Notes under the pieces: generated by a model | Seen by the model: the letters and a program-made list of their open reading frames with translations, nothing else | Told to the model about the DNA's origin: nothing | The model's database searches: none | Position numbers and translations under genes: made by a program | Shown here: positions 2,855-45,292 of the stretch, piece by piece | Layout of the letters: each line of letters opens with the position of its first letter | How positions within the stretch are numbered: the stretch's first letter is position 1 | Source of the DNA: Perkinsus olseni | Taxonomy: Eukaryota; Perkinsozoa; Perkinsida; Perkinsidae | Assembly (NCBI GenBank): GCA_013115135.1 | Contig: JABANP010000351.1 | Location: forward strand, 1-55,163 | DNA: 55,163 bases | Direction: 5' to 3'

Positions 2855-2876
2855 GTTACAGACTGTAACTTACAGT
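2855..2876. repeat. 22-base palindromic footprint, word gttacagt
   Basis: Perfect t1-t7 / reverse complement / t2-t8 structure. The matching place in the opposite arm (around 6871-6880) has a single ctgtaa and is 14 bases shorter. Confidence 0.85.
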
Positions 2877-3453
2877 TGGTTCGGCCGAAGCGATCAGTGT
2901 CGTCACGACACTGATCGCTTCGGCACTGTCGTGTTGTGGAGAAGTCTATGTTGCATCGTTTCTTACACAGCAGTGCCGTGACAGCACTGGCAGTATTGCA
3001 CTGCTATGCCTTCTAATGACACTAAAGTTGAATGATTTCATCACAACCTTGTTACTACGAGTGTGCGAAGAAGCTGCGTGGTGACGGCAGTCTCTAGTGG
3101 CAGATGCTTCTTGACTCGAAAATCTTACGTTGCGAGTAGACGTCGCTCGGATACTCGATGGTTCTGTCCATGGAGCCGCAGATTTCAAAATGGTTTTCTG
3201 GATGTGACACAGGGGCTGTGGCGAAATGGAGGAAAACGATATTCTCGCTTGGGGTTTCGCAATCGGGAGTTTCCTAGAGGCTTCGAAGTGAAGCAATGCT
3301 GGGCGTCCCTCGTTCGGCTGTGGTGTCATTCTTCTAATTCGACGTCATTGTTGTCCGCATCGCAGCTTAGCTGGAGCGTAGCTTCTTGCCAGAGCAAGAG
3401 AAGCTGAGTGATATAAGTTGTATCACTAAGTTATATCATAGAAGTTCTATGAC

Positions 3454-3475
3454 AGCCCAGACTGGGCTGCCCAGT
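3454..3475. repeat. 22-base palindromic footprint, word agcccagt
   Basis: Perfect structure: gcccag, reverse complement, gcccag, with both single-base centres complementary to the flanking bases. Other nested imperfect hairpins surround it (3420-3520). Confidence 0.75.
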
Positions 3476-3662
3476 TATGATGGTTCTAAGATAGAATCAT
3501 CAGAACTGGGCTGAGAGGGCCCTTGGAGATGGGTTTAACCCTACCTTTCAGAAGGCTATATCGGAATCGGTCACATGTCTACGTAAGGGAACCCACCCCA
3601 CTCCGCCACGAAATTGGGTCCGAAAAAATCCCTTTCGCCCAGTATTAACAACGCGAGATTAC

Positions 3663-3878
3663 TTGGCAAGAGAGTTATCCGAAGCTGTCCGAGTTAACCC
3701 ATCAAAGCTCGCAGCAGAGTCTGCTGCGCGGACTAGAAGGCTCCGAGATAAGGTGCTCAGTTTGGTCCGCCATCAGCAAGCTCCTGAGGTCCAGCATCGA
3801 ATGGTCAAGAAGTATCGAATCGGATGGAAAAAATTCCATGGTATATTATACCATGAAATTATGGTATACCAGGTATAA
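3663..3878 (+). CDS. Small basic ORF, uncertain
   Basis: A 71-codon frame rich in Arg, Lys and Ala (for example SAARTRRLRDKVLSLVRH). The inverted copy at about 5910-6080 keeps the same words on the minus strand but has one extra base near 6000, which breaks the frame. The last codons here lie inside a palindromic insertion absent from the other arm. Coding status is doubtful. Confidence 0.2.
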   Translation: MARELSEAVRVNPSKLAAESAARTRRLRDKVLSLVRHQQAPEVQHRMVKKYRIGWKKFHGILYHEIMVYQV

Positions 3879-4040
3879 TAACGAAAGGCGAATGAGAGAT
3901 GAAGTTTGCGGACATCTGAGTCGGGAATCATCATCCTAGCCGACTCCCGAGACGTCCTCGTGCTTCCTAGCGGCTGAGGTAGCCGGGCTAGCGAGGTAAG
4001 CCACTGGAATCGTCGGGTATAGTTATAGGGGGGTACTTAC

Positions 4041-4434
4041 AGATCCTGTAGCAATTAAAACCGAGCAGCATAGTGAACATGTCATTCAATGGATCGTAGC
4101 GGATTCTCTCCCAGTCCTCGAGTTCGTCGAACCAGAATTTGTTTGCGAAGGCGATGAAGTTCTCACTAGATGTATTCAGTTTCATCGTGTGTCTAAGACC
4201 ATCATAAGCATATGGGATCTCGCCCGTGTGGTAGATGGCAGGGTTCTCGTCTGTGGTATACACAACGTCGATGTTGACTGTACCCCCAATGGCCCTTACA
4301 TAAGGAGTGAACGTCCATGTTGTCGCGAGAATGGGAAACCAATCATCGTCCAGGCTCAAATACAGCGTGCTCGGGGGAAAGGGGGCCACCCCAGACGTGA
4401 CGGCGACTGTCAGCAGGGTCAGGAGGCGAGACAT
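4041..4434 (-). CDS. Secreted protein of unknown family, first exon (left-arm copy)
   Basis: The start is the ATG at 4434, which opens directly into a signal peptide (MSRLLTLLTVAVTSG). Upstream in-frame codons are hydrophilic and were not used. The mature part is aromatic and acidic and includes GGTVNIDVVYTT and AIYHTGEIPYAYDG. A consensus splice donor GTAAGT begins at 4040, after the codon for Ile in a C-Y-R-I context; unspliced, the frame would run to 3988. A downstream exon was not identified. The inverted paralogue at 5327-5726 aligns along the whole exon, which supports its being coding. I do not recognise the fold. Confidence 0.6.
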
Positions 4435-4447
4435 ACGAAGGGGTACA

Positions 4448-4780
4448 CTACAGAGCTCGGCATATAAAACCATAAACGTGAGCTATAAACTCTCTCATTC
4501 CTGCGGGAGCGAAATTCTGTACCATAGCGCCACCACGGAACTGCGCGTTGACGTAAACCCGAGGTTGACGACAATCGATGCGGCTTATCCCTATCCCTGG
4601 AAACCCTGGCTTAGATTTCCATTGCGCTAAGTCTGCGGCGCAGACGGCGCCATTGATCCCGTATGCGTTGTCTCCGGGTTGTATGTGTGCTCCATTCGTG
4701 AAAGCTTTCATATGATATGAAAGTAGATATGAATCATATCTACTTTTAGATCCGAGAAGGGGAGTACGTCCAGGCTTCAA
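4448..4780 (-). CDS. ORF upstream of the left-arm gene, conserved between arms
   Basis: A 110-codon frame containing PGDNAYGINGAVCAADLAQW and GIGISRIDC. The same frame is kept in the right arm (4831-5313) with amino-acid changes but no breaks over about 63 residues. It could be an exon of the adjoining gene or a transcribed leader. Function unknown. Confidence 0.3.
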   Translation of the reverse strand: MKPGRTPLLGSKSRYDSYLLSYHMKAFTNGAHIQPGDNAYGINGAVCAADLAQWKSKPGFPGIGISRIDCRQPRVYVNAQFRGGAMVQNFAPAGMREFIAHVYGFICRAL

Positions 4781-4830
4781 GGGGCCGGCTTATATCTCAG
4801 CGCTGGGGATGCTGAACTCGCCGGGCCTGC

Positions 4831-5313
4831 TTGATTACGAAAACTTTTACGGATGGAGCACACGGACAACCCGGAGACAACTTACACGGAATCAATCGCA
4901 CCGTCTGTGCCGCAGACTTTGCGCAATGGAAATCTGAGACAGGGTTTCTAGGGATAGGGATAAGCCGCATAGATTGTCGTAAACCCTGGGTTCACGTCAA
5001 CGGGCAGTTGCGTAGTGGTGCCATGGTACAGGATGTCGCTATAGCTCAACGTGGGCCCAGTAAAGTATCAAGTGATACCAAGTGGACGAAATTCAGTGTT
5101 AAGCAAAAGCTGGGACAGCGTTCCCCGTATGTGGAGCGGGCGAACGAAAATGTGCCAGCTTTCGCTTTAGGCCACGCTCGCACTGCAACCCATGACGGGT
5201 TACCCATCGATGGAAGCCCCACCTCGCATTCCTGTCAGGAATCCGCTTCCTTCAGAATACCCCCAGGGGAGTTTATAGCTTACGTTAATGGTTTTATCTG
5301 CCGGGCTCTGTAG
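4831..5313 (+). CDS. ORF upstream of the right-arm gene, with insertion
   Basis: Counterpart of the minus-strand ORF at 4448-4780. After residue ~68 it enters the roughly 200-base segment unique to this arm and stays open, then rejoins the homologous end (YVNGFICRAL). The open frame across the insertion may be chance. Confidence 0.25.
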   Translation: MITKTFTDGAHGQPGDNLHGINRTVCAADFAQWKSETGFLGIGISRIDCRKPWVHVNGQLRSGAMVQDVAIAQRGPSKVSSDTKWTKFSVKQKLGQRSPYVERANENVPAFALGHARTATHDGLPIDGSPTSHSCQESASFRIPPGEFIAYVNGFICRAL

Positions 5314-6945
5314 TGTACCCCTTCGTATGTCTCGCCTCTTGACCCTGCTGACAGTCGCCTTCACGTCTGGAGCGGCCCCCTTTCCCCCGAGCAAGGGTGT
5401 ATTTCAGCCTGGACGATCATCGGTTTCCCATTCTCACGACAAAATGGACGTTCACTCCTTATGTAAGGGCCATTGGGGGTACAGTCAACATCGACGTTGT
5501 GTATACCACACCAACAATACCAGACGAGAACTCTGCCATCTACCACACGGGCGAGATCCCATATGCTTACGACGGTGATAGAGACACGATGAAACTGGAT
5601 ACATCTAGTGGGAACTTCATCGCCTTCGGAAACAAATTCGGATTCAATAGAGAACCCGAGGACTGGGAGAAAATCCGCTACGATCCAGTTTGATGACAGG
5701 CTCACTATGCTGTTCGGTTTATAATTGCTACAATATCTATAAGTACTGGGGGCCCCAGTCTGGGGCTAGTACTCGCTAGCCCGGCTACCTCAGCCGCTGG
5801 GAAGCACGAGGACGTCTCGGGAGTCCGCTCGCATGATGATTCCCGATTCAGATGTCCGCAAACTTCATCTCTCATACGCCTTTCGTTATCATCCCATATA
5901 ATTTTTCCATCCGATTCGATACTTCTTGACCATTCGATGCTGGACCTCAGGAGCTTGCTGATGGCGGACCAAACTGAGCACCTTATCTCGGAGCCTTCTT
6001 AGTCCGCGCAGCCGACTCTGCTGCGAGCTTTGATGGGTTAACTCGGACAGCTTCGGATAACTCTCTTGTCAAGTAATCTCGCGTTGTTAATACTGGGCGA
6101 AAGGGATTTTTTCGGACACAATTTCGTGGCGGAGTGGGGTGGGTTCCCTTACGTGGAGATGCGGTCCATTCCGGCCCTTGCTTCTGGGTATAGCGGCCTC
6201 ACTCGGCGAATAGACCTCTGAAAGGTAGTGTCCATCTTCAAAGAATCCATCTCCAACAAAGAGTCCTCTCCGCGCAGTTATGATGGTTAGATTGCCGATC
6301 CTATCTTGCTCTGACAAGAAGCTACGCCGAGATGCAGATAATGAGAAGGCAGCAGGTGAAAGATTAAACTCCAGACGGTGAACTCGGGTGGGCGAGGTGG
6401 CATGTGTGGCAACAATGGCGCCAAATTAGAAGAATGCCAATAACCCAGTCCTGTTAATCGGGACGGCCAACACCGCTTCGGCGGAGAAGCGAAGCGGCTT
6501 CGCTTGGAAGCCTCCAGGAAACTCACGATTGCGACCCCTCCATCAAGTACATCGTTTTTCCTCCATTTCGTCATCGCTCCTCACATATCCTGAGTGAGGT
6601 AAGTTTCGCCTAGCCGGCACATCCATAGTACCATTTCGAAATCTGCAGCTTCAAGCACAGAGCCATCGCGTTTCCGAGCGACGACTACTTGAAACTCAAG
6701 AAGCATCTGCAACTAGAGACTGTCGTCATCAAGCTTCTTCGCACACTCGTAGTAACAATGGTTGTGAAATCATTCAACTTTAGTATCCTTCGAGGGCATA
6801 GCAGTGCTGTGTAAGAAACGATGCAGCATAGACTTCTCCACAACACGGCACTGGTCGCTTCGGCCGAACCAACTGTAACGATTCTTCGCCACCAAGTTGT
6901 ACCTACACAGTCGGAGATGCATCTACAACCACCCTGCTACTGTGA
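4839..6945 (-). repeat. Right arm of the ~2 kb inverted duplication
   Basis: Inverted counterpart of 2793-4711, separated from it by about 130 bases. It contains an extra roughly 200-base segment at 5043-5250 absent from the left arm. Its gene copy is damaged, so the palindrome is asymmetric in decay. Confidence 0.85.
5327..5726 (+). pseudogene. Damaged copy of the secreted-protein gene (right-arm copy)
   Basis: Starts with the same signal peptide words (MSRLLTLLTVAFTSG) but shifts frame near 5390, where one base is gained. It resumes in another frame at 5397-5693 (TFTPYVRAIGGTVNIDVVYT, GEIPYAYDGDRDTMKLD) and stops at a TGA where the left-arm copy reads on. The donor corresponding to GTAAGT has become ATAAGT. 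It also has a 12-base in-frame insertion near 5510. Confidence 0.7.
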
Positions 6946-7249
6946 ATCAAGAGTGGGGGCCACAGGAGAGTCCACTACCGCCGCCGGCTTAGCTAGACTT
7001 GACACCGCTGTGCTAGCATCATAACAATGAGCTGTGCGTTGGCGCTATTCAGCGAGCTGCACGAACGCTGAGTGAATCGAGTAAATCCCGAAAGTAAAAT
7101 TCACTGAAGTGAAATTAATGTAGATGAATTCATCACATCCTGTAAATTCGATAGATCAGTGCTGAGGCCCAGGATTGAACCCGGGACCTATAGCATCGGG
7201 TCAGAAAAGCCTCAGAGTCGATCTACGGGACAACCGCAGTGAATCGCAC

Positions 7250-7786
7250 TTACACAAACTCCCTGATAGCCTCGGGAACGTAAATGAGATAGTAACCCCA
7301 GCACCACGGAGCACAGAGTTCGCGGAGGCCCATCAGCCATGCGGTGGAGCCGCGATAGAGCTGACCATTTTTGAGGTAACCCCAGCTCTTGTTGATGTCC
7401 TCCTCGTCAACGTCGTATCTGACACAGGGTATCTTAAGGTCAACCGAGTAAGATACGGAACAGGTTAAGACTACTACTTTTCCAGAACTTTCAACGTGTC
7501 TGGATGGTTCGTCCACATGTACTTCACATCAGCGTCAGGCCGTACATGATCATTAACCTAACCAAAGACAACACGAGGATCGAAACGGAGCCAGTTCCAC
7601 GACTTGGTTGTAACGTCCATTGGAGCGAGGATGTAGCTGAGAATCTGGGCTTGGACTGTCGCCCGTCCAATAAAGTAATTCTGGAGCTCAGAATCGAAAC
7701 TATTCTTCACACGTGAAATCCCTTTTCCCCAATCGATGCTGACGGCCTCGTGCTCAATAGATCCCTCCAGAGTTTCAAGGACGCTC
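7250..7786 (-). CDS. Unrecognised gene, at least two exons
   Basis: An upstream exon (about 7786 down to 7567) reads FDPGSVLETLEGSIEHEAVS, then DWGKGISRVKNSFDSELQNY and FIGRATVQAQILSYILAPMD, ending near FDPRVVF. After a short putative intron (GTTAGG to AAG, about 41 bases) the second exon (about 7526 to 7250) contains LKIPCVRYDVDEEDINKSWG and ends CWGYYLIYVPEAIREFV-stop. Amino-acid composition and frame length on this strand look coding. Upstream of 7790 an in-frame TGA and a hairpin (around 7780-7830) obscure the start. No family recognised. Confidence 0.45.
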
Positions 7787-8547
7787 CCAGGATCGAATTT
7801 CAGGCGTCAAAATCATTCCTGGGAGCGCTCCTGGCATTGACGAGAGGTAGTCTATTGAACACCGCCTGAGTTTCAGCATAGGTTGCTTGAACGACCACTG
7901 TCGCTTACAAATCTGAGTGCGGTGTTGCATAGATTGCAAACTCCGTCGAAAATGAAGGTAGGGCCCTGGACGGCCAGTGTTAACCGCTCTTCCTCAGGTA
8001 GTTTACGGAGATCTTTCGATGCCATTGTCGATAAAAACACCTAGGGGAGGGAGATCGCGACCACGACGGAATTTCGTGGCGCGTGACGGAATCTTCTCAA
8101 CCCGTCCTCGTATTTGTTGTTGATGTCCCTCGAGGGCTAAGGATCGTCCCTAGCCTAGCCCCCATCCGGGCATCTCTGTCATCGTCATGCTTTACTCTGA
8201 GTCACAGCAAAAGGCGACTGACGTCAGCAATGACGGAATTTCGTGGCGCGTGACGGAAATGCGAACTGCGCATGCGTATTACTTCGACTTATTTTTGATT
8301 TGTCTAGCTCGAGTGCAATTTTTTCGGAGAAAGGGTTCAACGGATCTCCAACGAACTTCGGGTTCGCTCCAAGGACCAACTTCAAGGCTGTTCTGGGTGC
8401 GCTTTCGAATCTCAGGAGAGTTCTATTGAACACGCAGTGAAGCTTGTGATGATCGGCCTGAGAAGAACGAGTGAAATTGAAGTTTCAGAATCTATTGGGC
8501 CCGCGAGATTTATCTTTACGAAGTCCCCTACAGTTTTTTCCACTATA
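7787..8547. other. Intergenic stretch with two AATTTCGTGGCG motifs
   Basis: No gene found. It contains two copies of the dispersed motif (8070-8081 and 8237-8248), both within the longer context 'tgacggaatttcgtggcgcg' or close to it. Small frames on both strands between 8187 and 8847 are shadows of each other. Confidence 0.4.
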
Positions 8548-9721
8548 ATGCTCCCCCCCTTCCTCATCCTCTGCATTCTCCTTCCCTTCACCTTCGCCAA
8601 GGACTTCACCGCCACCAAGGCTCCTTTCGCTGAAGTAGATCTCGCCCGACGCCCTTCGGAGCACTACAAGTCCGCCGTTCGAGTGTCACTGCAAGCCTGG
8701 CCTTTCGACCAGAGTTTCCGTCCCCTCTTCGCCCAGTGGAACAAGACGACTTTCGACGGTCTGTCCGACAACGACTACGATGTTTTTATGGACTCTCTAG
8801 AAAAGTATTTCCCCGTGCAAGCCCTGGAGCTGCGAGGGCATCTCTGAGGAGTTTGCCGCTCACGGTTACTACGTCAGCTACCCCTTACCTGTGCGCCTGG
8901 GCCTACAGCCACGAGATCGGCCACTTCAGCGAGGACCCGAAGGTTCATCATGATTGCAGCGCTCTATTGGTTTCTGATAAGAACGGCCATGTCGTCCACG
9001 GCCGAAATATGGACCAGGGCGCCCCCGATTTTGCAAGGCGAGTTACTTTGCAATTAAGATACAAAAGAATATCGCTCCCTGGCGTTGCTGACGTCGAGGC
9101 CCTGGACTTCTACTGGTTCGCTGGTGGTATGGTGACGGCTGTTACTGCCGATGGTTTGTCCATGCAAGAGAACTGGCGGTCCGTTAATCGGCCGAAACAA
9201 GAGATTTTGAACCGGATTCGAGAAGGAGCTGTTCCTCACAAGTTCATGTTCCGAGGAGATGATGTTTAGAAATGGCGTAAGAGACTACGACGGCGCCGTT
9301 GAGTTTTTGAAAAAAGTGCCTTTCGGGGCGGCTGTTTATGTTGCTGTCGCTGGCGATGGCAAGTATCAAGGGTCGATCCTGACTCGAAACGAAACTGGGC
9401 CTTGTTGTACCGGTAGAGCACTTGAAGGACAACTGGTATGCCGTTGAGACTAATCATGATAACTGGTTACCCGACCCTCCGACGGACCCGAGGCGAACCA
9501 GGGCTGAGGAGTGCATTGCCAGACACGGTCAAAAGGACGGTGACGTGGCTACGTTCGGAGTGGTTGTTGATTGTATTTCAGAAAGGCCTGTGTTGAATGA
9601 TGGGACGATCTACACTGCGGTGATGTCGCCAAGGAGCGGCGAGCTTTGGGGCAGAGTCCGGTATGATGCTGCAGAGGCTGTGGATCCTGAGGCGTCTTCC
9701 GTGAAAGATGTTCTGCTATAG
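8548..9721 (+). pseudogene. N-acylethanolamine acid amidase (NAAA)/acid ceramidase-like, multiply frameshifted
   Basis: Family role: lysosomal or secreted Ntn-hydrolase cleaving fatty-acid ethanolamides. The start ATG at 8548 opens a clear signal peptide (MLPPFLILCILLPFTFA). Next comes the NAAA-type N-terminal block (VRVSLQAWPFDQSFRPLFAQ). The catalytic region DCSALLVSDKNGHVVHGRNM has the nucleophile Cys that becomes the beta-subunit N-terminus, and the downstream VETNHDNW matches the family's TN-x-D motif. The product ends EASSVKDVLL-stop at 9721. Four changes of frame are needed, near 8838, 8885, 9255 and 9405, and every one goes in the same direction (one extra base). No splice sites explain them. 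It is either a pseudogene, an error-rich assembly or, less likely, recoded. Confidence 0.8.
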
Positions 9722-10728
9722 ATTTTTTTGTGTTTTTAACGATTGATGGTTTCATAATTCTTGTAGTGTTGAATTGATGTGTGTGGGGAGGAGTTCACTT
9801 TAGTTGTATTCGAAGTCGCTCAGCGTCGCCGTCTGAGAATTCAAGTGCGAAAAGAGCATAGGATTTAGCAGAAAGCCTCAGTAGGTACTAACGAGGGTTA
9901 GTTCGGGGACTGAATACCCTCTCGTCTCTAATAGCGGAACTACTGGCCAGGCGTGCCCTGTTGAATCGGTGAGACTTGACGTGTTGGTGACCGGGTTGAA
10001 GGGAAAACATTTTTCCGCGAATTTCACTGCATCTGGTTTCTCGCCCTCTAAATGTCACTGAACTGAGTGAGCAACTTAGCCCAATACGGCGATGCTCTTC
10101 AAGTTTTGTCTTCGTCATTTCTCACTGTTAAGGGTTCGTCTTTAAACTCGCTCGCCTGAGGGTGAAACCGTCGCAGCATTCATCGCTGAGCTACGAACAG
10201 CTTCTGATTCTTCTAGGGGTGTCCGCCGGGCTCGTGGTCTCACTTCTTGTAGACGACAGTCATTTAGTTTTGTTGTTGTCAATGCCGATCCACCCTGATT
10301 CGATCAGCATGCAGCCTTCGACTCTCAAAGTGGTTGCTTCTGACTGCGTGGACGACACTCCCGTGAGCTCCTCGGACAGCTGCGGCTTCGCCTCGCCCAG
10401 CGTCGGGCTGTCACCGTCGTGCGGGGAGGATGAAGTTTGCAGCAGTACTGATGAGGATTTTCAAAGTAATAGGGAGAGGGACCCGCTGTGAGGGATTCTG
10501 TTGACGATTGTCGCCCTCGAAAGCTGTGATCACAAGCAAAAGGGGGACGTTCCGGACCGAGAAGAGTTTCGTCGAATATTATGTAATCTGTCCCCGTTTA
10601 CTTCTGTTCGAGCTCGTCTCTCTGGTTTATCGGGCGTCGATGAGTTCTTTCTCGTCTTTTTTACCTTTGTAACTTGAAATTGATTCATCTTCGGGTTCCG
10701 ATGATATCATTTTTGGTATGTTTACAAG
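9722..10728. other. Intergenic stretch; possible leader exon of the phosphatase
   Basis: A 109-codon frame at 10162-10491 (GTG at its head) has one hydrophobic segment (QLLILLGVSAGLVVSLLV) followed by a Ser/Asp-rich tail. It could be an N-terminal exon of the next gene, but I found no phase-compatible splice to 10729. Otherwise nothing recognisable. Confidence 0.3.
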
Positions 10729-12424
10729 ACTAACAAGCTCGCACTCACGGACCTGATCGTTGAGCAGCTGGCGATCGGCTCAGGTCCTCGATTGCCTTCC
10801 TACAGTCATTTCAAGCGGAAACCTCGTCCCAACGTTGGCTCCGGTTTTAGACCTCGGCGGATCATCCTGGTAGGTTGATTCGAAAACACACCACCTTCGG
10901 TGGAATTTTCGGTTGCAGGTGCGACACGGTGAGAGTATGGGAAACATAGATGAGCATACGTAATATTGGGACCGGGTGGCTCCTGAAAAACTGGATCAAT
11001 TATTCTGCTGTTTTCGCCTCGTTTTATCTGTGAATCACAGAAAATCACAGACTGTGATTTTCTTTGTTGGATAGAAACTCGCTTCGGATAACTTGGGATT
11101 TGGTTAATTTCTTATGCTTCATAAGTTCCTCTTTTCGTGGTTTGCCGGAATTGATAGCGAAGGTCCTTCGCCGAAGGAGTTCGCGGATCTTCTTGATTGC
11201 ATGAAACTGGCGATCCTCTGGCAGAATCGACGTATCTAGGATGTAAGCAAAATGAGAAAAATCGATTTTGTAATTGAAACTTGATGAGGCTCCGATGCCC
11301 TCGAAATTGGTATCCCAGAAATTTCCATCGTGGCAATTGCTACAACACCCGTTGCCGTTATCGTTGTTAACTTTATCAACATTCGTCCACATTGACATGT
11401 CATGACAACAATGCTCGTTGACAACAACTTGTTGTTGTTTCTGTCGTTGTTCATGTCATTGATTTCCCTCTGCAGGTACAGTCAAGTTCCCGACTGGAAG
11501 GTGCCCCTCACGGGTAGAGGAAGGCTGGAGGCTCGAGTGGCCGGAGAGCAGATCAAAAAGTTGGTCAAGCGAGCTGTGTTCTACGTCAGTCCGTACAGGC
11601 GGACAGTTGAGGTGAGCGAGAGGAAACATCGCGCTTGCTATTGTGGATTTTCAGACGTACGAAGAGATCGCGAAAACGATCGGTTTGGACAAAGTTGTGT
11701 CGGTCCGATCGGAGCCGCGGATCAGAGAGCAAGATTTTGGCAACTTCCAGTGTCCGACGGAGATGTTGAAGTGCAAACAAGAAAGGGAAAGATTTGGCCG
11801 TTTCTTTTACCGCTTCCCTCATGGTAATCTGCGCATGCGTGTCGAAGGCATACCACTCCTTCGTGAACTCTTTAGGTGAATCTGGCGCTGATGTCTATGA
11901 TCGCGTCACGACTTTTCTGGAGTCGATGAAGCGGCATTGGAGTGAGCCAACCCGAGGGAGCTCGTAATAAAGGCTGGAATACCAGTGGCGGATTCTATGT
12001 CTGCTCAGGAGGGCCTATCGACCGCGAACTCGGAGTGATGTATTCGCTGGTCACTTGCGCTATACTGAGGATTCAGACGTGGTAGGTCGTTGTTAGGAAT
12101 CTTACCGTTTCATGAGTATCTTTTACAGGTGATTGTCACTCATGGTGTAACTCTCCGTATTTTTCTCATGCGTTGGTTCAACTGGACGGTCGATCTTTTC
12201 GAGGAAACTTACAATCCTCACAATTGCGATGTTGTTGTAAGAAGGAGATAAAAATGGTGATCATGAAACGCTTCGCTCCGCTCGATTCGCAGGTGATGGT
12301 TCGAGATGAGGAGGGTCATTATCAACTGACTGAGGATTCTCTGAACCTTCTCGGCCTTACTGATAAAGTCCTCAAGAATGCCAGCAACACCATGATAGGG
12401 ATGCGATACAATGGTAAACGGTAG
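10729..12424 (+). CDS. Histidine phosphatase (phosphoglycerate mutase-like), 8 exons, N-terminus open
   Basis: Branch-1 histidine phosphatase close to plant AT74-type proteins; substrate unknown. Exons with consistent phases: about 10729-10869, 10919-10959, 11476-11611, 11655-11823, 11876-11963, 12009-12081, 12129-12236, 12293-12424. The motifs cross splice joins correctly: RRIIL|VRHGESMGN (phosphate-binding RHG, catalytic His), YVSPYRRT, REQDFGNFQ, RFGRFFYRFPHG|ESGADVYDRV, and VIVTHGVTLR with the second catalytic His. The protein ends MRYNGKR-stop. Three donors are GTAATA or GTAATC rather than GTAAGT. The first exon has no ATG; an in-frame TGA near 10700 means an upstream exon must exist. 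The last intron contains CGCTTCGCTCCGCT just before its acceptor, a word also found before an acceptor in the CDPK gene. Confidence 0.85.
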
Positions 12425-13755: not shown

Positions 13756-13777
13756 AGCCTGACTCAGGCTGCCTGAG
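13756..13777. repeat. 22-base palindromic footprint, word agcctgag
   Basis: Perfect structure; both centre bases obey the complement rule. Confidence 0.75.
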
Positions 13778-14194: not shown

Positions 14195-14216
14195 CGCTGA
14201 GACTCAGCGGCTGAGT
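14195..14216. repeat. 22-base palindromic footprint, word cgctgagt
   Basis: Perfect structure; lies in intergenic DNA. Confidence 0.75.
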
Positions 14217-14720
14217 TCACAGTCCGTCCGACTTGGTGGCCAAGCGAGGTACCGAACAGCATTGCCGAGTTTGCATAGGAGTCCGAACTTGTGACTCGCA
14301 AGTTCCGACTGGAGCTGAGGCACATCCGGCACTGTTTCAAGTTTTTTCCGGGAATTGGTAAAGGGACATTTCCCGGAAATTCCCTTTCCCGGAAATACTC
14401 AGAGTTTTCCCAGTTAGGGCAAACCCTGTCAATCACAGATGACTCAGTGACATGAAGCCTCATCAACGCAATTCAAGTCTCATTTCGTAACACCCACAAA
14501 CAAAAACACGACCAAAAACAAAACCATTCCGCTATGGGAGGAACAGCTCAATTGAAGTGATAAGTCTCCGCTGATAACCAATCCTTGACCGTAGCCCATC
14601 TGAATCAGATGATCTGATTGTTATCCGATCCAGCAACTGGTTGCCGATTGAAAACTTATTTGTTCACTTGTCCCCGGTGGGTAAGTTACCCAGGGTAGCT
14701 CATCTGCATTAGAGAGTCTA

Positions 14721-19490: not shown

Positions 19491-19512
19491 GCGCTGTCAC
19501 AGCGCCGCTGTG
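19491..19512. repeat. 22-base palindromic footprint, word gcgctgtg
   Basis: Perfect structure. Confidence 0.75.
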
Positions 19513-22256: not shown

Positions 22257-22278
22257 TAATCAGGCTGATTAAATCAGC
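22257..22278. repeat. 22-base palindromic footprint, word taatcagc
   Basis: Perfect structure, 35 bases after the stop of the 172-aa secreted protein. Confidence 0.75.
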
Positions 22279-22849
22279 CTGCTCCGCCGTTTTGTACTGA
22301 CACTGACATTATGTCAATGACATGCCATCAAGAGCCTTTTAATGTAATATATCACCGTCGGCATTGGTTGTGGGGCCTAGATTGCGACACCTAATGGTCG
22401 TGGCCGACACAAGTCTGTCCCTTCAAGCACTAAATGTGCTTGTGCTCTAATCCGAGCACGCGTATTTTTCTCGGGCCTGGCAATGACCGATCCACTAGTC
22501 ATTAGTAGATGGGTCTTTCGTAGTAGCCGATCAAGAGGGCCCCTGTTTTTCAACTCGTCTTCCTGTGGACAAGAACCCTGTGCGTCATCCTGTTGCCGGC
22601 ATGAGTAGGCAGCAGGTCAAGCATCAGTACAGTCGCTGCGTAACGCAGCCTGCGTTCGCTTGGGTAGATGAGTGCTATCATTGGATTAACTCTCTTGTTC
22701 GGCTCATACTCATTCAAGTCAGTCTCTTCTCTGAGTCTTAGAGGTGATGAGTTCAGTTTCAGGCGGCCGAAGCCCAACACTTAGGATATGAGTGATTCTA
22801 AGAGGGCATCGATCGGAACGATTCCTTACCTAACAACTTTTTAGTAACA

Positions 22850-22871
22850 AGTGGGCGGCCCACTGTGGGCC
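22850..22871. repeat. 22-base palindromic footprint, word agtgggcc
   Basis: Perfect structure. Confidence 0.75.
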
Positions 22872-23135: not shown

Positions 23136-23157
23136 CCTATGAATCATAGGCTATGAT
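23136..23157. repeat. 22-base palindromic footprint, word cctatgat
   Basis: Perfect structure. Confidence 0.75.
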
Positions 23158-23181: not shown

Positions 23182-23203
23182 CAGATCAATGATCTGAGAT
23201 CAT
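23182..23203. repeat. 22-base palindromic footprint, word cagatcat
   Basis: Perfect structure, 24 bases after the preceding one. Confidence 0.75.
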
Positions 23204-23400: not shown

Positions 23401-23422
23401 GTAGGTAATACCTACTAGGTAT
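23401..23422. repeat. 22-base palindromic footprint, word gtaggtat
   Basis: Perfect structure; the word fits the hAT target pattern nTnnnnAn. Confidence 0.75.
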
Positions 23423-26022: not shown

Positions 26023-26030
26023 GTGCCGAC

Positions 26031-26350
26031 CAGGGTGGCCCAGCGGGGAAGAATGCTATTCTTTCTTACCGGGAATTCCGGAAATTCCCGGGAAGAAAGA
26101 ATGCTCAATATTCCCTGGAAGAATGGTTGAGATTCTTCCCGGGCATTTAGGTGCTTCATTCCAATGGTTTGACCTGAGGAAGCATCGAGTACGGCCGGAT
26201 ATGCGCGCCGAAGGCGCGCGAAAAAAAATTGGGGGGCTTGTTTCAATGGGGAAGAATGCTTTCTTTCTTCCCGGCTATATTCCCGGGAATTCCCGGAAAT
26301 TCCCGGGAATGGGAAGAATGATCCATTCTTCCCACTTTTGGGCCACCCTG
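26031..26350. mobile_element. Intact hAT-type MITE, 320 bp, with 8-bp target duplication
   Basis: Terminal inverted repeats start CAGGGTGGCCCA and end TGGGCCACCCTG, perfect over 12 bases and continuing imperfectly (GGGAAGAATG). The element is flanked on both sides by the same 8 bases, gtgccgac (26023-26030 and 26351-26358). An 8-bp duplication together with a CAGGG-type terminus is the signature of the hAT superfamily. The interior has no coding capacity and consists of GGGAATTCCCGG-type palindromes. Intact ends and a perfect target duplication suggest recent insertion. Confidence 0.92.
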
Positions 26351-26644
26351 GTGCCGACACAAAAGGACCGAGACGACACTAGCGCGAGCATTTTACCGAG
26401 ATGGATGACCGCTGTGCTGGACATTCATCCCTCTTCAATCCCGGGACCCCGTTTGGTGCATAACTTGCACCCACTCGACAACTTGAAATGTTCCACTGCC
26501 GTCCACGGCCATCTCAAATTCTGCACAAGTATACGTAAGTCCCGGAGTTCCCCAGGCGAGGATCGAACCTGGGTCAATCGCTCAGTACAGACGAATAATT
26601 CTGGTGAAGTACGCTGGGACTTTGTGTGGTTTGGTGTTGTTTCG

Positions 26645-28194: not shown

Positions 28195-28216
28195 CTTCAC
28201 AGTGTGAAGTTCACAC
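28195..28216. repeat. 22-base palindromic footprint, word cttcacac
   Basis: Perfect structure; the word fits nTnnnnAn. Confidence 0.75.
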
Positions 28217-28378: not shown

Positions 28379-28400
28379 AACCATCTGATGGTTACCATCA
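28379..28400. repeat. 22-base palindromic footprint, word aaccatca
   Basis: Perfect structure. Confidence 0.75.
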
Positions 28401-31436: not shown

Positions 31437-31458
31437 ATGGACATTGTCCATTGGACAA
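31437..31458. repeat. 22-base palindromic footprint, word atggacaa
   Basis: Perfect structure; the word fits nTnnnnAn. Confidence 0.75.
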
Positions 31459-31585: not shown

Positions 31586-31607
31586 CTAACCAGTGGTTAG
31601 TAACCAC
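31586..31607. repeat. 22-base palindromic footprint, word ctaaccac
   Basis: Perfect structure; the word fits nTnnnnAn. Confidence 0.75.
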
Positions 31608-32936: not shown

Positions 32937-32958
32937 CTCTCGGACCGAGAGTCTCGGT
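32937..32958. repeat. 22-base palindromic footprint, word ctctcggt, unit A only
   Basis: Perfect. Unit B has a single tctcgg (39059-39064); the difference is exactly 14 bases. Confidence 0.9.
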
Positions 32959-33123: not shown

Positions 33124-33145
33124 GCACACGGCGTGTGCCACACGC
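33124..33145. repeat. 22-base palindromic footprint, word gcacacgc, unit A only
   Basis: Perfect. Unit B reads cacacg once (39232-39237); difference 14 bases. Confidence 0.9.
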
Positions 33146-33395: not shown

Positions 33396-33417
33396 CTTAC
33401 AGGCTGTAGGCTACAGC
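33396..33417. repeat. 22-base palindromic footprint in tRNA spacer, word cctacagc
   Basis: Also at 33930-33951 and 34287-34308 (one mismatch) and at 39503-39524 and 40383-40404 (perfect). Spacers without it are exactly 14 bases shorter. Confidence 0.9.
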
Positions 33418-34054: not shown

Positions 34055-34155
34055 TTATAGAATAACATGTCCGGAAGCTGCAGGGCCGAATAGCCGAGGC
34101 GCAACATCTTCCTCCTACAGCCATAAGAGGATAAAGCGATTTAACGAAATATTTA

Positions 34156-34227: not shown

Positions 34228-34342
34228 TTACACGATAACACGTCCGGAAGCTGCAGGGCCAAATAGCCGTGGCGCAAGATCTTCCTCTTACAGGCTGTAG
34301 GCTACAGCCAAAAGAGGATAAAGCGATCTAACGAAATACTTA

Positions 34343-34414
34343 AGCCACTTGCCAGGATTGAACTGACGACCTTCTGCTTACGAAGTAGACGCTCTACCAC
34401 TAAGCTAAAGTGGC
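34343..34414 (-). tRNA. tRNA-Thr (CGT), array A unit 7, one stem mismatch
   Basis: As the intact units except an A-C mismatch in the anticodon stem (gtagac on the plus strand at about 34384-34389). Confidence 0.65.
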
Positions 34415-34516
34415 TTGCACGATAGGATGTCCAGAAGCTGCACGGCCGAATAGCCGTAGAGGAAGATCTTCCACCTAGGATCATCAAAGGATAAACTTGA
34501 TGTCACCAAACACTTC

Positions 34517-34588
34517 AGTCAATTGCTAGGATTGAATTAACGACCTTCTGCTTACAGAGCAGACGCTCTACCACTAAGCTAAAGTGGC
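34517..34588 (-). pseudogene. tRNA-Thr-like with TGT anticodon (array A unit 8)
   Basis: Same sequence type as unit 3, TGT with C33; the larger unit 2-4 has been copied to units 7-9. Confidence 0.55.
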
Positions 34589-34690
34589 TTACACGATAGT
34601 ATGTCCGGAAGCTGCACGGGCCGAATAGCCGTGGCGCAAAATCTTCCTCCTACAGCCGTAAGAGGATAAAGCGATCTCACGAAATACTTC

Positions 34691-34762
34691 AGCCGCTTGC
34701 CAGGATTGATCTGACGATCTTCTGCTCACGAAGCAGACGCTCTACCACTAAGCAAAAGTGGC
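34691..34762 (-). pseudogene. tRNA-Thr-like variant (array A unit 9)
   Basis: CGT loop; T-loop ATCAATC and one acceptor mismatch. Confidence 0.5.
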
Positions 34763-34864
34763 TTACACGATAACACGTCCGGAAGCTGCAGGGCCAAATA
34801 GCCGTGGCGCAAGATCTTCCTCCTAGAATCGTCAAAGGATAAATTTGATGTCACCAAATTCTTT

Positions 34865-34936
34865 AGCCACTGGCCAGGATTAAACTGACGACCTTCTGCC
34901 TACGAAGCAGACGCTCTACCACTAAGCTAAAGTAGC
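34865..34936 (-). pseudogene. tRNA-Thr-like, terminal unit of array A (unit 10)
   Basis: CGT anticodon, loop TTCGTAG, T-loop TTTAATC and an acceptor mismatch next to the D-arm. Confidence 0.5.
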
Positions 34937-35158
34937 TTACACTGTAACATGTCCGGAAATTCCGGACCGGAAGCTGCAGGGCCAAATAGCCGTGGAAGCA
35001 AGATCTTGGCAGTGATCGACAACGGCTGATCGGCGAGAATGAAATTCTGGGAGTAGAGGAATTTTTCGCTCCCGCACAACGAAGAAGGCGTGTTTTGTGT
35101 GATAAGCCACTGGAGCATCTTCCGCACAAACGAAGCTAGTGCAGGTATTCAAGCGATA

Positions 35159-39210: not shown

Positions 39211-39275
39211 GTCAGTTATCTGCTTACGAAGCACACGCTCTACCAGTGGTAGACTACCACTAAACTGATGTGGCC
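39211..39275 (-). pseudogene. tRNA-Thr relic with one footprint
   Basis: Unit B counterpart of 33101-33182; lacks the gcacacgc footprint but keeps the tctaccac one. Confidence 0.6.
39239..39260. repeat. 22-base palindromic footprint, word tctaccac
   Basis: Perfect; inserted into the D-arm of a former tRNA-Thr gene whose intact relatives read ctaccacta. Confidence 0.9.
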
Positions 39276-39336: not shown

Positions 39337-39358
39337 ATGCTGCTGCAGCATTGCTGCA
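39337..39358. repeat. 22-base palindromic footprint, word atgctgca, unit B only
   Basis: Perfect. Unit A reads tcaatgctgaattgcc (33241-33256) and is 14 bases shorter. Confidence 0.88.
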
Positions 39359-39443: not shown

Positions 39444-39558
39444 TTACACGATAACACGTCCGGAAGCTGCAGGGCCAAATAGCCGTGGCGCAAGATCTTC
39501 CTCCTACAGGCTGTAGGCTACAGCCATAAGAGGATAAAGCGATCTCACGAAATACTTC

Positions 39559-39630
39559 AGCCACTTGCCATAATTGATCTGACGATCTTCTGCTCACGAA
39601 GCAGACGCTCTACCACTAAGCAAAAGTGGC
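39559..39630 (-). pseudogene. tRNA-Thr-like variant (array B unit 2)
   Basis: CGT loop TTCGTGA; altered T-loop ATCAATT. Confidence 0.5.
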
Positions 39631-39731
39631 TTACACGATAACACGTCCGGAAGCTGCCGGGCCAAATAGCCGTGGCGCAACATCTTCCTCCTACAGCCAT
39701 AAGAGGATAAAGCGATCTCACGAAATACTTA

Positions 39732-39803
39732 AGCCACTTGCCAGGATTGAACTGACGACCTTCTGCTTACGAAGCAGACGCTCTACCACTAAGCTAAAGT
39801 GGC
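39732..39803 (-). tRNA. tRNA-Thr (CGT), array B unit 3
   Basis: All stems paired; identical to 33452-33523. Confidence 0.85.
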
Positions 39804-39905
39804 TTACACGATAGCATGTCCAGAAGCTGCGTGGCCAAATAGCCGTAGAGGAAGATCTTCCTCCTAGAATCATCAAAGGATAAACTTGATATCACCAAAC
39901 ACTTC

Positions 39906-39977
39906 AGCCACTTGGCAGGATTGAACTGACGACCTTCTGCTTACGAAGCAGACGCTCTACCACTAAGCTAAAGTGGC
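39906..39977 (-). tRNA. tRNA-Thr (CGT), array B unit 4, one T-stem mismatch
   Basis: As the intact units except CTGCC in place of CTGGC in the T-stem. Confidence 0.65.
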
Positions 39978-40078
39978 TTACACAATAACATGTCCGGAAG
40001 TTGCAGGGCCGAATAGCCGAGGCGCAACATCTTCCTCCTACAGCCATAAGAGGATAAAGCGATCTCACGAAATACTTC

Positions 40079-40150
40079 AGCCACTTGCCAGGATTGAACT
40101 GACGACCTTCTGCTTACGAAGCAGACGCTCTACCACTAAGCTAAAATGGC
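40079..40150 (-). tRNA. tRNA-Thr (CGT), array B unit 5
   Basis: Intact; acceptor GCCATTT pairs with AAGTGGC through one wobble pair. Confidence 0.8.
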
Positions 40151-40251
40151 TTACACAATAACATGTCCGGAAGCTGCAGGGCCGAATAGCCGAGGCGCAT
40201 CATCTTCCTCCTACAGCCATAAGAGGATAAAGCGATCTCACGAAATACTCA

Positions 40252-40323
40252 AGCCACTTGCCAGGATTGAACTGACGACCTTCTGCTTACGAAGCAGACG
40301 CTCTACCACTAAGCTAAAGTGGC
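40252..40323 (-). tRNA. tRNA-Thr (CGT), array B unit 6
   Basis: Intact, all stems paired. Confidence 0.85.
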
Positions 40324-40438
40324 TTACACGATAACACGTCCGGAAGCTGCAGGGCCAAATAGCCGTGGCGCAAGATCTTCCTCCTACAGGCTGTAGGCTA
40401 CAGCCATAAGAGGATAAAGCGATCTCACGAAATACTTA

Positions 40439-40511
40439 AGCCACTTGCCAAGGATTGAACTGACGACCTTCTGCTTACGAAGCAGACGCTCTACCACTAA
40501 GCTAAAGTGGC
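40439..40511 (-). tRNA. tRNA-Thr (CGT), array B unit 7, one-base insertion
   Basis: An extra base next to the T-stem gives an 8-base T-loop or a bulge; otherwise intact. Confidence 0.55.
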
Positions 40512-40612
40512 TTACACGAAAGCATGTCCAGAAGCTGCAAGGCCAAATAGCCGTAGAGGAAGATCTTCCTCCTACAGCCGTAAGAGGATAAAGCGATCTC
40601 ACGAAATACTTC

Positions 40613-40684
40613 AGCCACTTGCCATAATTGATCTGACGATCTTCTGCTCACGAAGCAGACGCTCTACCACTAAGCAAAAGTGGC
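40613..40684 (-). pseudogene. tRNA-Thr-like variant (array B unit 8)
   Basis: Same variant type as unit 2. Confidence 0.5.
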
Positions 40685-40785
40685 TTACACGATAACACGT
40701 CCGGAAGCTGCAGGGCCAAATAGCCGTGGCGCAACATCTTCCTCCTACAGCCATAAGAGGATAAAGCGATCTCACAAAATACTTA

Positions 40786-40857
40786 AGCCACTTGCCAGGA
40801 TTGAACTGACGACCTTCTGCTTACGAAGCAGACGCTCTACCACTAAGCTAAAGTGGC
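40786..40857 (-). tRNA. tRNA-Thr (CGT), array B unit 9
   Basis: Intact, all stems paired. Confidence 0.85.
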
Positions 40858-40959
40858 TTACACGATAGCGTGTCCAGAAGCTGCGAGGCCAAATAGCCGT
40901 AGAGGAAGATCTTCCTCCTAGGATCATCAAAGGATAAACTTGATATCACCAAACACTTC

Positions 40960-41031
40960 AGCCACTTGCCAGGGTTGAACTGACGACCTTCTGCTTACGA
41001 AACAGACGCTCTACCACTAAGCTAAAGTGGC
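40960..41031 (-). tRNA. tRNA-Thr (CGT), array B unit 10
   Basis: Intact; one wobble in the anticodon stem (TCTGT/GCAGA) and T-loop TTCAACC. Confidence 0.75.
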
Positions 41032-41132
41032 TTACACAACAACATGTCCGGAAGCTGCAGGGCCGAATAGCCGAGGCGCAACATCTTCCTCCTACAGCCA
41101 TAAGAGGATAAAGCGATCTCACGAAATACTTA

Positions 41133-41204
41133 AGCCACTTGCCAGGATTGAACTGACGACCTTCTGCTTACGAAGCAGACGCTCTACCACAAAGCTAAAG
41201 TGGC
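41133..41204 (-). tRNA. tRNA-Thr (CGT), array B unit 11, A14 changed
   Basis: Intact stems, but the D-loop position normally A14 is T, which should weaken the core fold and the A box. Confidence 0.6.
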
Positions 41205-41306
41205 TTACACGATAGCGAGTCCAGAAGCTGCGAGGCCAAATAGCCGTAGAGGAAGATCTTCCTCCTAGAATCATCAAAGGATAAACTTGATGTCACCAAA
41301 TTCTTT

Positions 41307-41378
41307 AGCCACTTGCCAGGATTGCACTGACGATTTTCTCACTACAAAGCGGACGCTCTACCACTAAGCTAAAGTAGC
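41307..41378 (-). pseudogene. tRNA-Thr-like, broken anticodon stem (array B unit 12)
   Basis: Loop TTTGTAG would give TGT, but three of five anticodon-stem pairs are lost. Confidence 0.55.
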
Positions 41379-41592
41379 TTACACTGTAACATGTCCGGAA
41401 ATTCCGGACCGGAAGCTGCAGGGCCAAATAGCCGTGGAAGCAAGATCTTGGCAGTGATCGACAACGGCTAGAATGAAATTCTGGGAGTAGGGGAATTTTT
41501 CGCTCCCGCACAACGAAGAAGGCGTGTTTTGTGTGATAAGCCACTGGAGCATCTTCCGCACAAACGAAGCTAGTGCAGGTATTCAAGCGATA

Positions 41593-42848: not shown

Positions 42849-43500
42849 ATGTACATCATCGCCCAGATTATGAGCCTTATTTGCCTTTGTGGCGCAATCC
42901 TCGACAACAAGATCGAGTCTCCCGACGGATATTCGTAAGCGAAACTTGTCGCTCTATTAAGAACATCCATTGCGTCTGCTGTCCAGGAGAAGCAAAGCTC
43001 AGCTAAGTATGGTGTCCGTGAATGCAAGTTCAGCGGAGCTCACTAAGGGTAGGCAGATGCTCGAAGACGATTTATCCAGCATTTCTGTGGCTCAGGAGGG
43101 AATACCTACGAGAAGCCGACGGGAGGAAAATGTTACGTGAAAGGTTCTGACATACTGGGATGTTCTTGCAGCACTGACCAGGCTGTCGCTATCACAGTGA
43201 GTGCAGCAACATGCTCGATCTTCTCAAACCATTGGTCCGTCCAACTCAGAGCGGTGGCACGGTTGTGGCCGTCGTGTGCACACAGTCGTGCGGAAGCGGG
43301 TGTCCTAAGCCACCCCGCGGGGCGGCAGAGTGTCTCTTCGGGGTCTGCTTTATTAGATGCGAGTATGACGAGGTGAGCCAGCCGTAGCTCTCCCACCGCT
43401 GCCCAGTTCCACGTATTCTCAGGACTGCCCGGCCTCTGGTGTCTGCGAAGATTTCGGGTCATATGGGTCCCAGGGGTTCGGCTGCATGTTTGAGCAGTAG
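42849..43500 (+). CDS. YEKP-family 12-Cys secreted protein, copy B2 (about 138 aa)
   Basis: Exons 42849-42934, about 43067-43196, 43250-43372, 43423-43500, at the A2 positions plus 6431 through exon 3. Leader and the first three exons are nearly identical to A2 (K to E once in RCKYDE). Exon 4 differs more: DCPASGVC, GSYGSQGFGCMFEQ-stop. This contrast suggests faster change of the last exon or gene conversion of the first three. Confidence 0.7.
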
Positions 43501-44530
43501 CACAGCTGCTACTACAGCAACTCTACAGGAGAGAGGTCGAGTCTTCATGTACCAGACCATGCTCAGCTTAGCATCCCTCCGTATGCGAGCCCCGGGCATC
43601 TCTTGGTAAAGAGGCGAGTATTCGATTCGATCAACAACTCTTTAGTCCGTACCATATATCATTCATTACGATATTATCAATCTCATCCCAGCTGAGTCAT
43701 CTCGTTTTTTCTCACCCGATTACTCCACTCTAGGAGCAGATTCTGCTCAGCAGGAGCTCGTGTGGAGTCTCTTTCTACTTTGTTCTCAAGCGGAGATGGA
43801 AGGCGCAGTCAAGTTTCACATCAGCAGAGGTATCACGCAGGGGCAACTTTCAACATCACGCAGTTCAACTTTTCTCTGCTAGCGATGTTATAGCTGATGT
43901 TCATCGCTGGAATTTGTTTTCAAACGTTGCTCACATTGAATCGCGAATGTGTCGACCAGTTTCTGACTTCACTCTCTATTCGCCAGATGAAGTGTGCGTC
44001 AAGTTGGTCGGTATCATATCGCGCTTGAGGTATCTCGAGATTGGCCTTTGCGTTCGGCCCAGTGACAGTAGAATGCGCAATCCTTGTGCCATTCATTGAC
44101 TCCCGGATTCAGTTCACTGAACTGAGTTTAAGTGAATCAGTTGCGCGAGACGCAATCTTTGCCCGAAGCATGAAGCTTGTCTGCTGAAAAGAACGAACAA
44201 GTTGGCTCACGAGGAGAGCCGGACCGTCTCAGACCGTTTATTGGTGCCTTACTGAATGCGCGTGATAGCAGTGCACGTGGCACGTACTAGGTACTTACCA
44301 TTTGTACTCTTGTCCCCATCCTGATGAGCTGACAGCTCGACTAACTTCAACGAATTTCCGCTACCCCTGGAATAAGTACTTCAATACGGAGCAAATACAA
44401 CGGGCCCGGATAGATCTCTCAAACTTCTGGAGCTTGGAGAGTTCATGCCCGTCCTGATAGCAGAATGACTCTGGTCTACATTGTAGACTCTACAATCATA
44501 TGGAGCCGGGTACGTAGTAGGTGGTACGTA
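43501..44530. other. Tail of unit B without recognised gene
   Basis: Counterpart of 37070-38110. No coding exon supported. Confidence 0.4.
44474..44495. repeat. 22-base palindromic footprint, word gtctacaa, unit B only
   Basis: Perfect. Unit A reads tctcca once (38093-38098) and is 14 bases shorter. Confidence 0.9.
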
Positions 44531-44776
44531 CCTTGGGACCCAAAACGAGTCTCGAATTGAGACTCTTAATGTGTTTTGTTTGATCACTCGGATCCTTCTT
44601 GCACACAGAAATCTTCGGCTTCGTCAAGAAGACTTACGCAGTGACACTAGCCTACAGTAAAATCCGTCCTGCGGCAAGACGAATGGGCCCGATGGGCCGA
44701 TGGTCGATGGGGCCCATCGAATGATCCATAGTATGGATCCCATACTGCAAGACTCACGGAGCAGCTGCGAAGCTCC

Positions 44777-44798
44777 TATCTCATTGAGATAATCTCAA
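44777..44798. repeat. 22-base palindromic footprint, word tatctcaa
   Basis: Perfect structure. Confidence 0.75.
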
Positions 44799-44869
44799 TA
44801 TCCGCATTCCGTAGTGGTAACCTCAGGAGGGCTCCGCGACTGAAGCACTGGATGTTCACAGGTCCATTC

Positions 44870-44891
44870 TTCTCAAATTGAGAATCTCAAT
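44870..44891. repeat. 22-base palindromic footprint, word ttctcaat
   Basis: Perfect structure; the word fits nTnnnnAn. Confidence 0.75.
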
Positions 44892-45049
44892 CGATCGGTC
44901 GAAACGCATAAGACCATATCCATTCCGAAGCTCAGCGGCTGAGCCTCAGCATCACGCACTACAGAGACTCCTCTAATCTTTCCGCTCATACGGCCTTTTT
45001 TCTATTTTCTTAAATCACACGGCCCCGGTTCCCAGTGAACATCACTTTT

Positions 45050-45071
45050 GGCTAGGACCTAGCCGCTAGGT
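45050..45071. repeat. 22-base palindromic footprint, word ggctaggt
   Basis: Perfect structure. Confidence 0.75.
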
Positions 45072-45270
45072 GCGTGTTCTCCGCTGTCTTTTCGCGGTGA
45101 AGATCTACGTGCTTCGTGGCTTCCCATGAATTCCAGTATTAGGTACCGAGTAAGAACGCGAGGAGGGTGGGGCGGTCCCGCATCAAGGATCCTGGCGAGC
45201 ATAATTGGATAACAGCAGCGTGACAGCGAATAATCTCACGAGGACCTACACAGCAAACACTCTCCTGAAG

Positions 45271-45292
45271 TCCTATAATATAGGACCTATAT
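45271..45292. repeat. 22-base palindromic footprint, word tcctatat
   Basis: Perfect structure. Confidence 0.75.

Follow-up and report, generated by a model that had tools for sequence, protein, structure and literature searches.

Perkinsus olseni, a parasite of clams and oysters, belongs to the Perkinsozoa within the Alveolata. We analysed a stretch of 55,163 nt from contig JABANP010000351.1 of this organism (hereafter the window). A DNA polymerase A fragment encoded elsewhere in the assembly shares 99% identity with one P. olseni protein (over 34% of the query) and 89% with a second (over 35%); its best match along the full length has 87% identity. The window contained no match to a spliced-leader motif, sought as a sign of a dinoflagellate relative. 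The window contains open reading frames (ORFs), one of them weakly similar to hAT transposases, together with a hAT-type miniature inverted-repeat transposable element (MITE), tandem arrays of tRNA-Thr genes and many copies of a 22-base palindromic signature. For a word of eight bases, t1 to t8, the signature reads t1–t7, then the reverse complement (rc) of t1–t8, then t2–t8. Wherever a copy of the locus lacking the signature exists, the signature is a gain of 14 nt at a single 8-mer. The 22-mers are referred to as scars in what follows. The coordinates are collected in Table 1.

A full scan of the window identified 32 exact matches to the rule, located between positions 2519 and 48791. Allowing one mismatch raised the number to 53, and allowing two raised it to 83. 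The original prediction, made by reading the DNA sequence, proposed about 25 recurrences between positions 2855 and 45292. The signature does recur, and sites do lie in that interval, but the number was too low and the true range is wider. All 17 coordinates then listed as perfect were exact on rescanning. Four sites listed as imperfect, at 13587, 22303, 28486 and 44930, have 1, 2, 1 and 1 mismatches respectively.

The signature is specific to words of eight bases. For word lengths (k) of 6, 7, 8, 9 and 10, the window had 0, 0, 32, 0 and 0 exact matches; the count was also zero from k=11 to k=14. In 20 order-2 Markov sequences derived from the window there were three matches in total at k=6 and none at k=7–10. 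We also scanned the window for offsets other than one base per side, at k=7–10. Nothing comparable was found, apart from sets of 12 and 6 matches at k=9, in which 11 and 5 respectively were known k=8 sites extended by one chance base. Other word lengths and offsets were thus rejected as a separate signal.

The same analysis was applied to 20 stretches of 10 kb (200 kb) from other contigs of the 61.48-Mb assembly. Below, such stretches are labelled L and other contigs of the assembly C. This sample contained 28 exact matches at k=8, two at k=7, two at k=6 and none at k=9–12. One Markov set, used as the control, gave none at k=6–10. For the genome, 28 matches in 200 kb extrapolate to about 8,600 (Poisson range 5,700–12,400), from stretches that were hand-picked and mostly (16 of 20) contig starts. 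The two exact 7-base versions, L014:3372 and L022:8012, may be rare 7-bp duplications or may be chance. Hence, the claims of a non-chance origin and of a sharp peak at word length 8 both held. Neither a lack of excess over controls nor an equal excess at all word lengths was seen in the window or the sample.

Pooling window and sample (255 kb) gave 60 exact 22-mers, compared with 0 in the controls, and 58 different words were represented. The same DNA contained 76 22-mers with three matching 6-base cores. Both single-base centres were complemented in 60 of the 76, as had been proposed, and both were uninverted in none. When possible scars were tabulated according to the numbers, m and n, of palindromic (P) nucleotides, there was a great excess at m+n=8, which is the 22-mer form (60 versus 0 in the control). 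The alternative form t1–8, rc(t2–7), t1–8, expected from 5′ overhangs, was absent from the 255 kb. Tandem 8-mers, whether plain or separated by short spacers, were not in excess. The original prediction had offered a structural rule with no function or mechanism, and that rule is supported.

We next consider what stood at these sites previously. Alignment of repeats within the window revealed a single 8-mer in copies of the scars at 2855, 32937 and 33124, and of those in the tRNA arrays. A tandem copy of 44474, near position 38085, is without the 14 nt, and its 8-mer differs at two positions. Three tRNA-array scars (33396, 33930 and 34287) have one substitution in common, a later change. We then queried 30 of the 32 window scars against the assembly and scored the best 40 of 64 candidates. 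Contig C616 is allelic or paralogous to 22–49 kb of the window, and the end of C91 likewise corresponds to 2.4–2.9 kb. For the scar at 48770, the C616 counterpart is 125 nt long, against 126 bases for the joined empty form, and 94% identical. Among the matches listed, nine scars had the same span on C616 or C91, the span of five was ambiguous and a complete counterpart was lacking for 15.

For the sample, 27 of 28 scars were queried and the best 40 of 138 candidates were scored. Counterparts without the 14 nt were found for L027:6039 (100% identity, two contigs), L027:6365 and L027:3981 (98%, two contigs each), L014:3306 (98%), L028:361 (95%) and L028:540 (91%). For L026:2609 (99% over 89 nt) and L027:7708 (84%), partial copies likewise lacked the insertion. 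Across both L028 sites together, at least 14 further retroelement matches were 29–30 nt shorter; at least one match was 14 nt shorter. The counterparts of L021:6502 and L028:1666 were of scarred length. Some of the 14-nt gains are thus very young. The stretch L027 1829–8424 is a retroelement with five exact scars, three of which are absent from two contigs with 98–100% identical flanks. Since each scar adds 14 bases, reading frames are broken; two ORF ends in the L027 retroelement fall inside scars.

Table 1. Scars and transposon-related features of the window. Labels beginning with C denote other contigs of the assembly; TIR, terminal inverted repeat; TSD, target site duplication.
Feature	Position	Strand	Word	Remarks
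Exact scar	2519..2540		GGATCTCG	Within ORF 1980-2588; C91 counterpart has same span
Exact scar	2855..2876		GTTACAGT	Inverted copy ~6870 has single 8-mer; C91 same span
Exact scar	3454..3475		AGCCCAGT	
Exact scar	5745..5766		ACTGGGGC	
Exact scar	11157..11178		GCGAAGGA	
Exact scar	13756..13777		AGCCTGAG	
Exact scar	14195..14216		CGCTGAGT	
Exact scar	14597..14618		CATCTGAT	
Exact scar	19491..19512		GCGCTGTG	
Exact scar	22257..22278		TAATCAGC	
Exact scar	22635..22656		GCTGCGTT	
Exact scar	22850..22871		AGTGGGCC	
Exact scar	23136..23157		CCTATGAT	
Exact scar	23182..23203		CAGATCAT	
Exact scar	23401..23422		GTAGGTAT	
Exact scar	28195..28216		CTTCACAC	
Exact scar	28379..28400		AACCATCA	
Exact scar	31437..31458		ATGGACAA	C616 same span
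Exact scar	31586..31607		CTAACCAC	C616 same span
Exact scar	32937..32958		CTCTCGGT	Tandem copy ~39040 has single 8-mer; C616 same span
Exact scar	33124..33145		GCACACGC	Tandem copy ~39230 (93% identical stretch) has single 8-mer; C616 same span
Exact scar	39239..39260		TCTACCAC	
Exact scar	39337..39358		ATGCTGCA	
Exact scar	39503..39524		CCTACAGC	tRNA-Thr repeat unit
Exact scar	40383..40404		CCTACAGC	tRNA-Thr repeat unit
Exact scar	44474..44495		GTCTACAA	C616 same span
Exact scar	44777..44798		TATCTCAA	
Exact scar	44870..44891		TTCTCAAT	
Exact scar	45050..45071		GGCTAGGT	
Exact scar	45271..45292		TCCTATAT	C616 same span
Exact scar	46129..46150		GTTTAGTC	C616 same span
Exact scar	48770..48791		AATCTTAG	C616:6319-6443 without the 14 nt
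Scar, one substitution	33396..33417			tRNA-Thr unit (also 33930, 34287); other units have single 8-mer CCTACAGC
Scar, one mismatch	41394..41415			Also 34952; single 8-mer TCCGGAAG in several tRNA-Thr units
Three overlapping/adjoining ORFs	731..2588	+		First (731-1528) weakly hAT-transposase-like
320-bp hAT-type MITE	26023..26358			TIR CAGGGTGGCCCA; 8-bp TSD GTGCCGAC both sides

Imperfect copies of the signature provide a measure of age. Sites with exactly 0, 1, 2 and 3 mismatches numbered 32, 21, 30 and 28 in the window (control means 0, 0, 0 and 2.4) and 28, 20, 23 and 31 in the sample (control means 0, 0, 0.6 and 4.4). Equal classes are expected under constant production and neutral decay. 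Hence, scar production looks steady, with no single burst. Two of the 32 window scars fall in stop-to-stop ORFs of at least 150 codons, which occupy 19% of the window; these are too few for any claim.

The 22-mer is probably the scar of an excised hAT-type DNA transposon that had duplicated the eight bases. Insertion would have generated the arrangement ABCDEFGH-element-ABCDEFGH. During excision, each flank would be nicked one base away from the element and sealed as a hairpin. The left hairpin would read ABCDEFG-h-gfedcba and the right hairpin hgfedcb-A-BCDEFGH, where small letters are complements. A nuclease would then cut both hairpins open, 8 nt or more from the tip, producing the 3′ overhangs hgfedcba and ABCDEFGH. 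Such overhangs would be perfectly complementary because both flanks had the same duplicated 8-mer. They would anneal, any further 3′ flap would be trimmed and the gaps would be filled, leaving ABCDEFG-hgfedcba-BCDEFGH. The steps could correspond to Mre11-type hairpin opening followed by microhomology joining. The model accounts, with no free parameter, for the length of eight (duplication), the one-base offsets (nick) and the two inverted centres (hairpin turn). Opening to 5′ overhangs would leave the centres uninverted, and none of that form was found; thus, the observed form is that of a 3′-overhang annealing product. In work on Hermes the first nick is reportedly offset by one base. According to the cited passages, hAT elements make 8-bp duplications and form flank hairpins on excision (PMC10368747, PMC4763223, PMC2803484, PMC5873905).

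The link to hAT excision is likely, and is founded on geometry, target preference and company rather than on a caught event. Target preference was examined in the 91 distinct scar words from all DNA examined. T at t2, or A at t7, occurred at 72 of 182 positions, against a background of 0.247 (p=7e-6). This is a bias towards nTnnnnAn, not a strict motif; the same sequence is given as the target preference of Hermes in the cited passages (PMC10368747, PMC2803484). The Buster-type motif nnnTAnnn was not enriched in the 91 words (45 of 182).

With respect to company, the hAT dimerisation domain PF05699 had matches at 21 places in the assembly. Three ORFs at these loci were scanned and all matched DUF4371, one of them below the cut-off. 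One of the three, of at least 595 amino acids, matches both DUF4371 and PF05699. Within the window, the ORF at 731–1528 matched DUF4371 (13.6 bits) and zf-C17orf113 (17.4 bits), with neither score reaching the curated cut-off. No Pfam match was obtained for the remaining two ORFs of this cluster, including 1980–2588; we infer that all three are part of one element. At one hAT-domain locus, L032 529–1975, we noted a 1,431-bp stretch with a 12-base TIR, TAGAGATGGGCA, and an 8-bp duplication, GTCCGGAG. This is possibly a second hAT family.

Around the 21 hAT-domain loci, 64 kb contained 32 distinct scars, against 27 in the 200-kb sample, a 3.7-fold higher density. For the MITE family, the best 40 of 60 candidates were scored and perfect 8-bp TSDs were present in 21 of the 21 copies read, window copy included. 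In a comparison with empty sites, where the best 40 of 137 candidates were scored, at least 10 of 20 joined flank pairs matched an ungapped empty site elsewhere (94–100%). Hence, the MITE insertions are recent.

Several results weigh against an origin in hAT excision. Among the matches listed, no site carries an element in one copy and a scar in another; there is one half-match, on C500. The repeat around the MITE L066 occurs in two copies that exceed the query by 14 nt (C665:19308–19500 and C496:4986–5175); the scar predicted at the MITE's duplication was found in neither with up to three mismatches allowed. The 21 MITE duplications alone do not display a clear T2/A7 preference (0.31). The stretches L024 and L026–L028 are also scar-dense, so the density near hAT genes may reflect DNA rich in transposable elements. 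Candidates with both TSD and TIR number 5 in 319 kb, some perhaps by chance, compared with 60 exact scars in 255 kb. With so many more scars than recognisable intact insertions, turnover of the elements must be high. Finally, short P-nucleotide footprints showed little or no excess over the control (191 versus 180 for none, and 7 versus 5 for one per side). Three P nucleotides on one side only were in slight excess (9 versus about 2).

The scarcity of intact elements, and the lack of a filled counterpart among the matches listed, also suit a scheme with no excision. Here a hAT-derived or other nuclease would act on bare 8-bp targets, so that the inverted 14-nt insertion would arise directly, as a mutation. 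Among domesticated hAT transposases, some do produce breaks capped by hairpins, as the cited account of Kat1 describes (PMC4763223). Yet the hairpins need two direct copies of the 8-mer beforehand, as supplied by an 8-bp-duplicating insertion. Furthermore, a filled-in 8-bp staggered cut would produce a plain tandem 8-mer, of which there is no excess. We regard this scheme as unlikely.

Slightly less likely still is an origin outside hAT, in which the transposase of a P, Merlin or undescribed superfamily that duplicates 8 bp also forms flank hairpins with the one-base offset. The scars themselves give only duplication length and hairpin geometry, and a filled and scarred pair, which might name the element, is missing from the matches listed. 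Against this, the genome carries hAT domains and hAT-type MITEs, and the word preference is of the Hermes type; no search aimed at P or Merlin families was made. P-element excision leaves parts of the element behind, and the exact scar has no room for element pieces.

A third explanation invokes template switching during replication, or fold-back synthesis at breaks, with eight bases copied in reverse before synthesis returns. The form of the product is that of a two-jump switch. Inverted insertions at yeast breaks, mostly 5–34 bp, are described in the cited passages (PMC11724301). Lengths vary there; here, eight bases and an offset of one on both sides are the rule, with 0 matches in the window at k=7, 9 or 10 and two in the sample at k=7. 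The words also carry a transposase-like base preference. We consider template switching highly improbable. Least probable of all is that the 22-mers are artefacts of assembly, or elements kept by selection for a function as RNA hairpins or protein-binding palindromes, since, although perfect double palindromes can resemble binding sites, nearly every exact case has a different word, the decay classes are flat, three tRNA-array copies have a later substitution in common and nine window sites have the same span on C616 or C91.

The scars, understood as products of hAT excision, can be compared with known systems. P-nucleotides of this kind are familiar from V(D)J coding joints, where off-centre opening of flank hairpins yields palindromic P nucleotides. 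There, no duplicated 8-mer is present and so there is no fixed-length annealing; the joints are diverse, unlike the scars here. Palindromic P-nucleotide footprints are already known for hAT elements. The cited parts of the literature on Ac/Ds, in yeast, plants and Candida, describe footprints whose palindromes of P nucleotides have at their centre the complement of the element-bordering base and are attributed to hairpins. In Saccharomyces cerevisiae the palindrome arms reach up to 20 nt and most footprints involve microhomology. In Candida there were 28 footprint types in 128 clones and the longest P insert was 3 nt (PMC5873905). The likeness to our scars extends to flank-derived P-nucleotide palindromes, the complemented centre, the hairpin intermediate (which would apply here) and microhomology. 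Thus, each step of the proposed mechanism has precedent in the long arms and microhomology seen in S. cerevisiae. Conversely, Ac/Ds products, as described there, are mixed and mostly short; here one product inverts the whole 8-bp duplication, at genome scale.

Hermes, in the passages cited, resembles the present system in its 8-bp duplications, nTnnnnAn preference and flank hairpins (PMC10368747, PMC2803484, PMC4763223). Conversely, the transposase ORFs scanned here are of DUF4371 type, and the one compared with Hermes gave only a weak C-terminal match (E=0.73, from sequence alone). For mPing (PIF/Harbinger), the TSD is described as supplying the microhomology that makes repair uniform. In that case there are 3-bp 5′ overhangs and precise restoration, whereas here the overhangs would be 3′ and inverted, and 14 nt are gained (PMC4561436). 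Searches of the open PMC literature turned up no account of one inverted product spanning the full duplication, nor of such scars at genome scale; a single earlier case may exist in subscription papers outside it, e.g. Yu et al. 2004.

A single uniform product suggests a dominant role, in this organism, for deep hairpin opening with microhomology joining. A stronger form of the proposal, that nearly every hAT excision passes through hairpins opened beyond the 8-bp duplication, ends as annealed inverted overhangs and leaves thousands of sites readable with target word and age, is tentative; we place it a little short of even. If hAT excision is indeed the source, the history of cut-and-paste transposition, which is usually erased or reduced to unreadable small indels, could be counted base by base. 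Each scar would record the target word and the site, and its decay would serve as a clock. Sequence alone would suffice to test how hairpins are opened and ends joined after transposition, and the pattern could be scanned for in any genome.

Loss of end joining was considered as a reason for the single product, and the assembly was searched with profiles of repair proteins, within the limits set by introns. The Ku beta-barrel profile gave one match over the cut-off (43 residues, 28 bits) and Ku_N gave none. The DRMBL domain, which we take to mark the Artemis/Pso2 family, had one match (64 bits). There were 10 matches to the DNA polymerase A family, on four contigs.

Other features of the window were also noted. 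The two tandem arrays, at 33266–34958 and 39518–41400, are built of ~173-nt units bearing tRNA-Thr (anticodon CGT) genes, of which ARAGORN found 16. Both arrays sit in a tandem duplication of ~6.1–6.4 kb, and a related array is present on C616. A large imperfect inverted duplication occupies positions 2783–6951; its arm pieces are 84–100% complementary and at least one scar, that at 2855, is in one arm only. On the minus strand, an ORF at 18374–18877 matches nucleotide-diphospho-sugar transferase (PF03407, E=4.2e-5).

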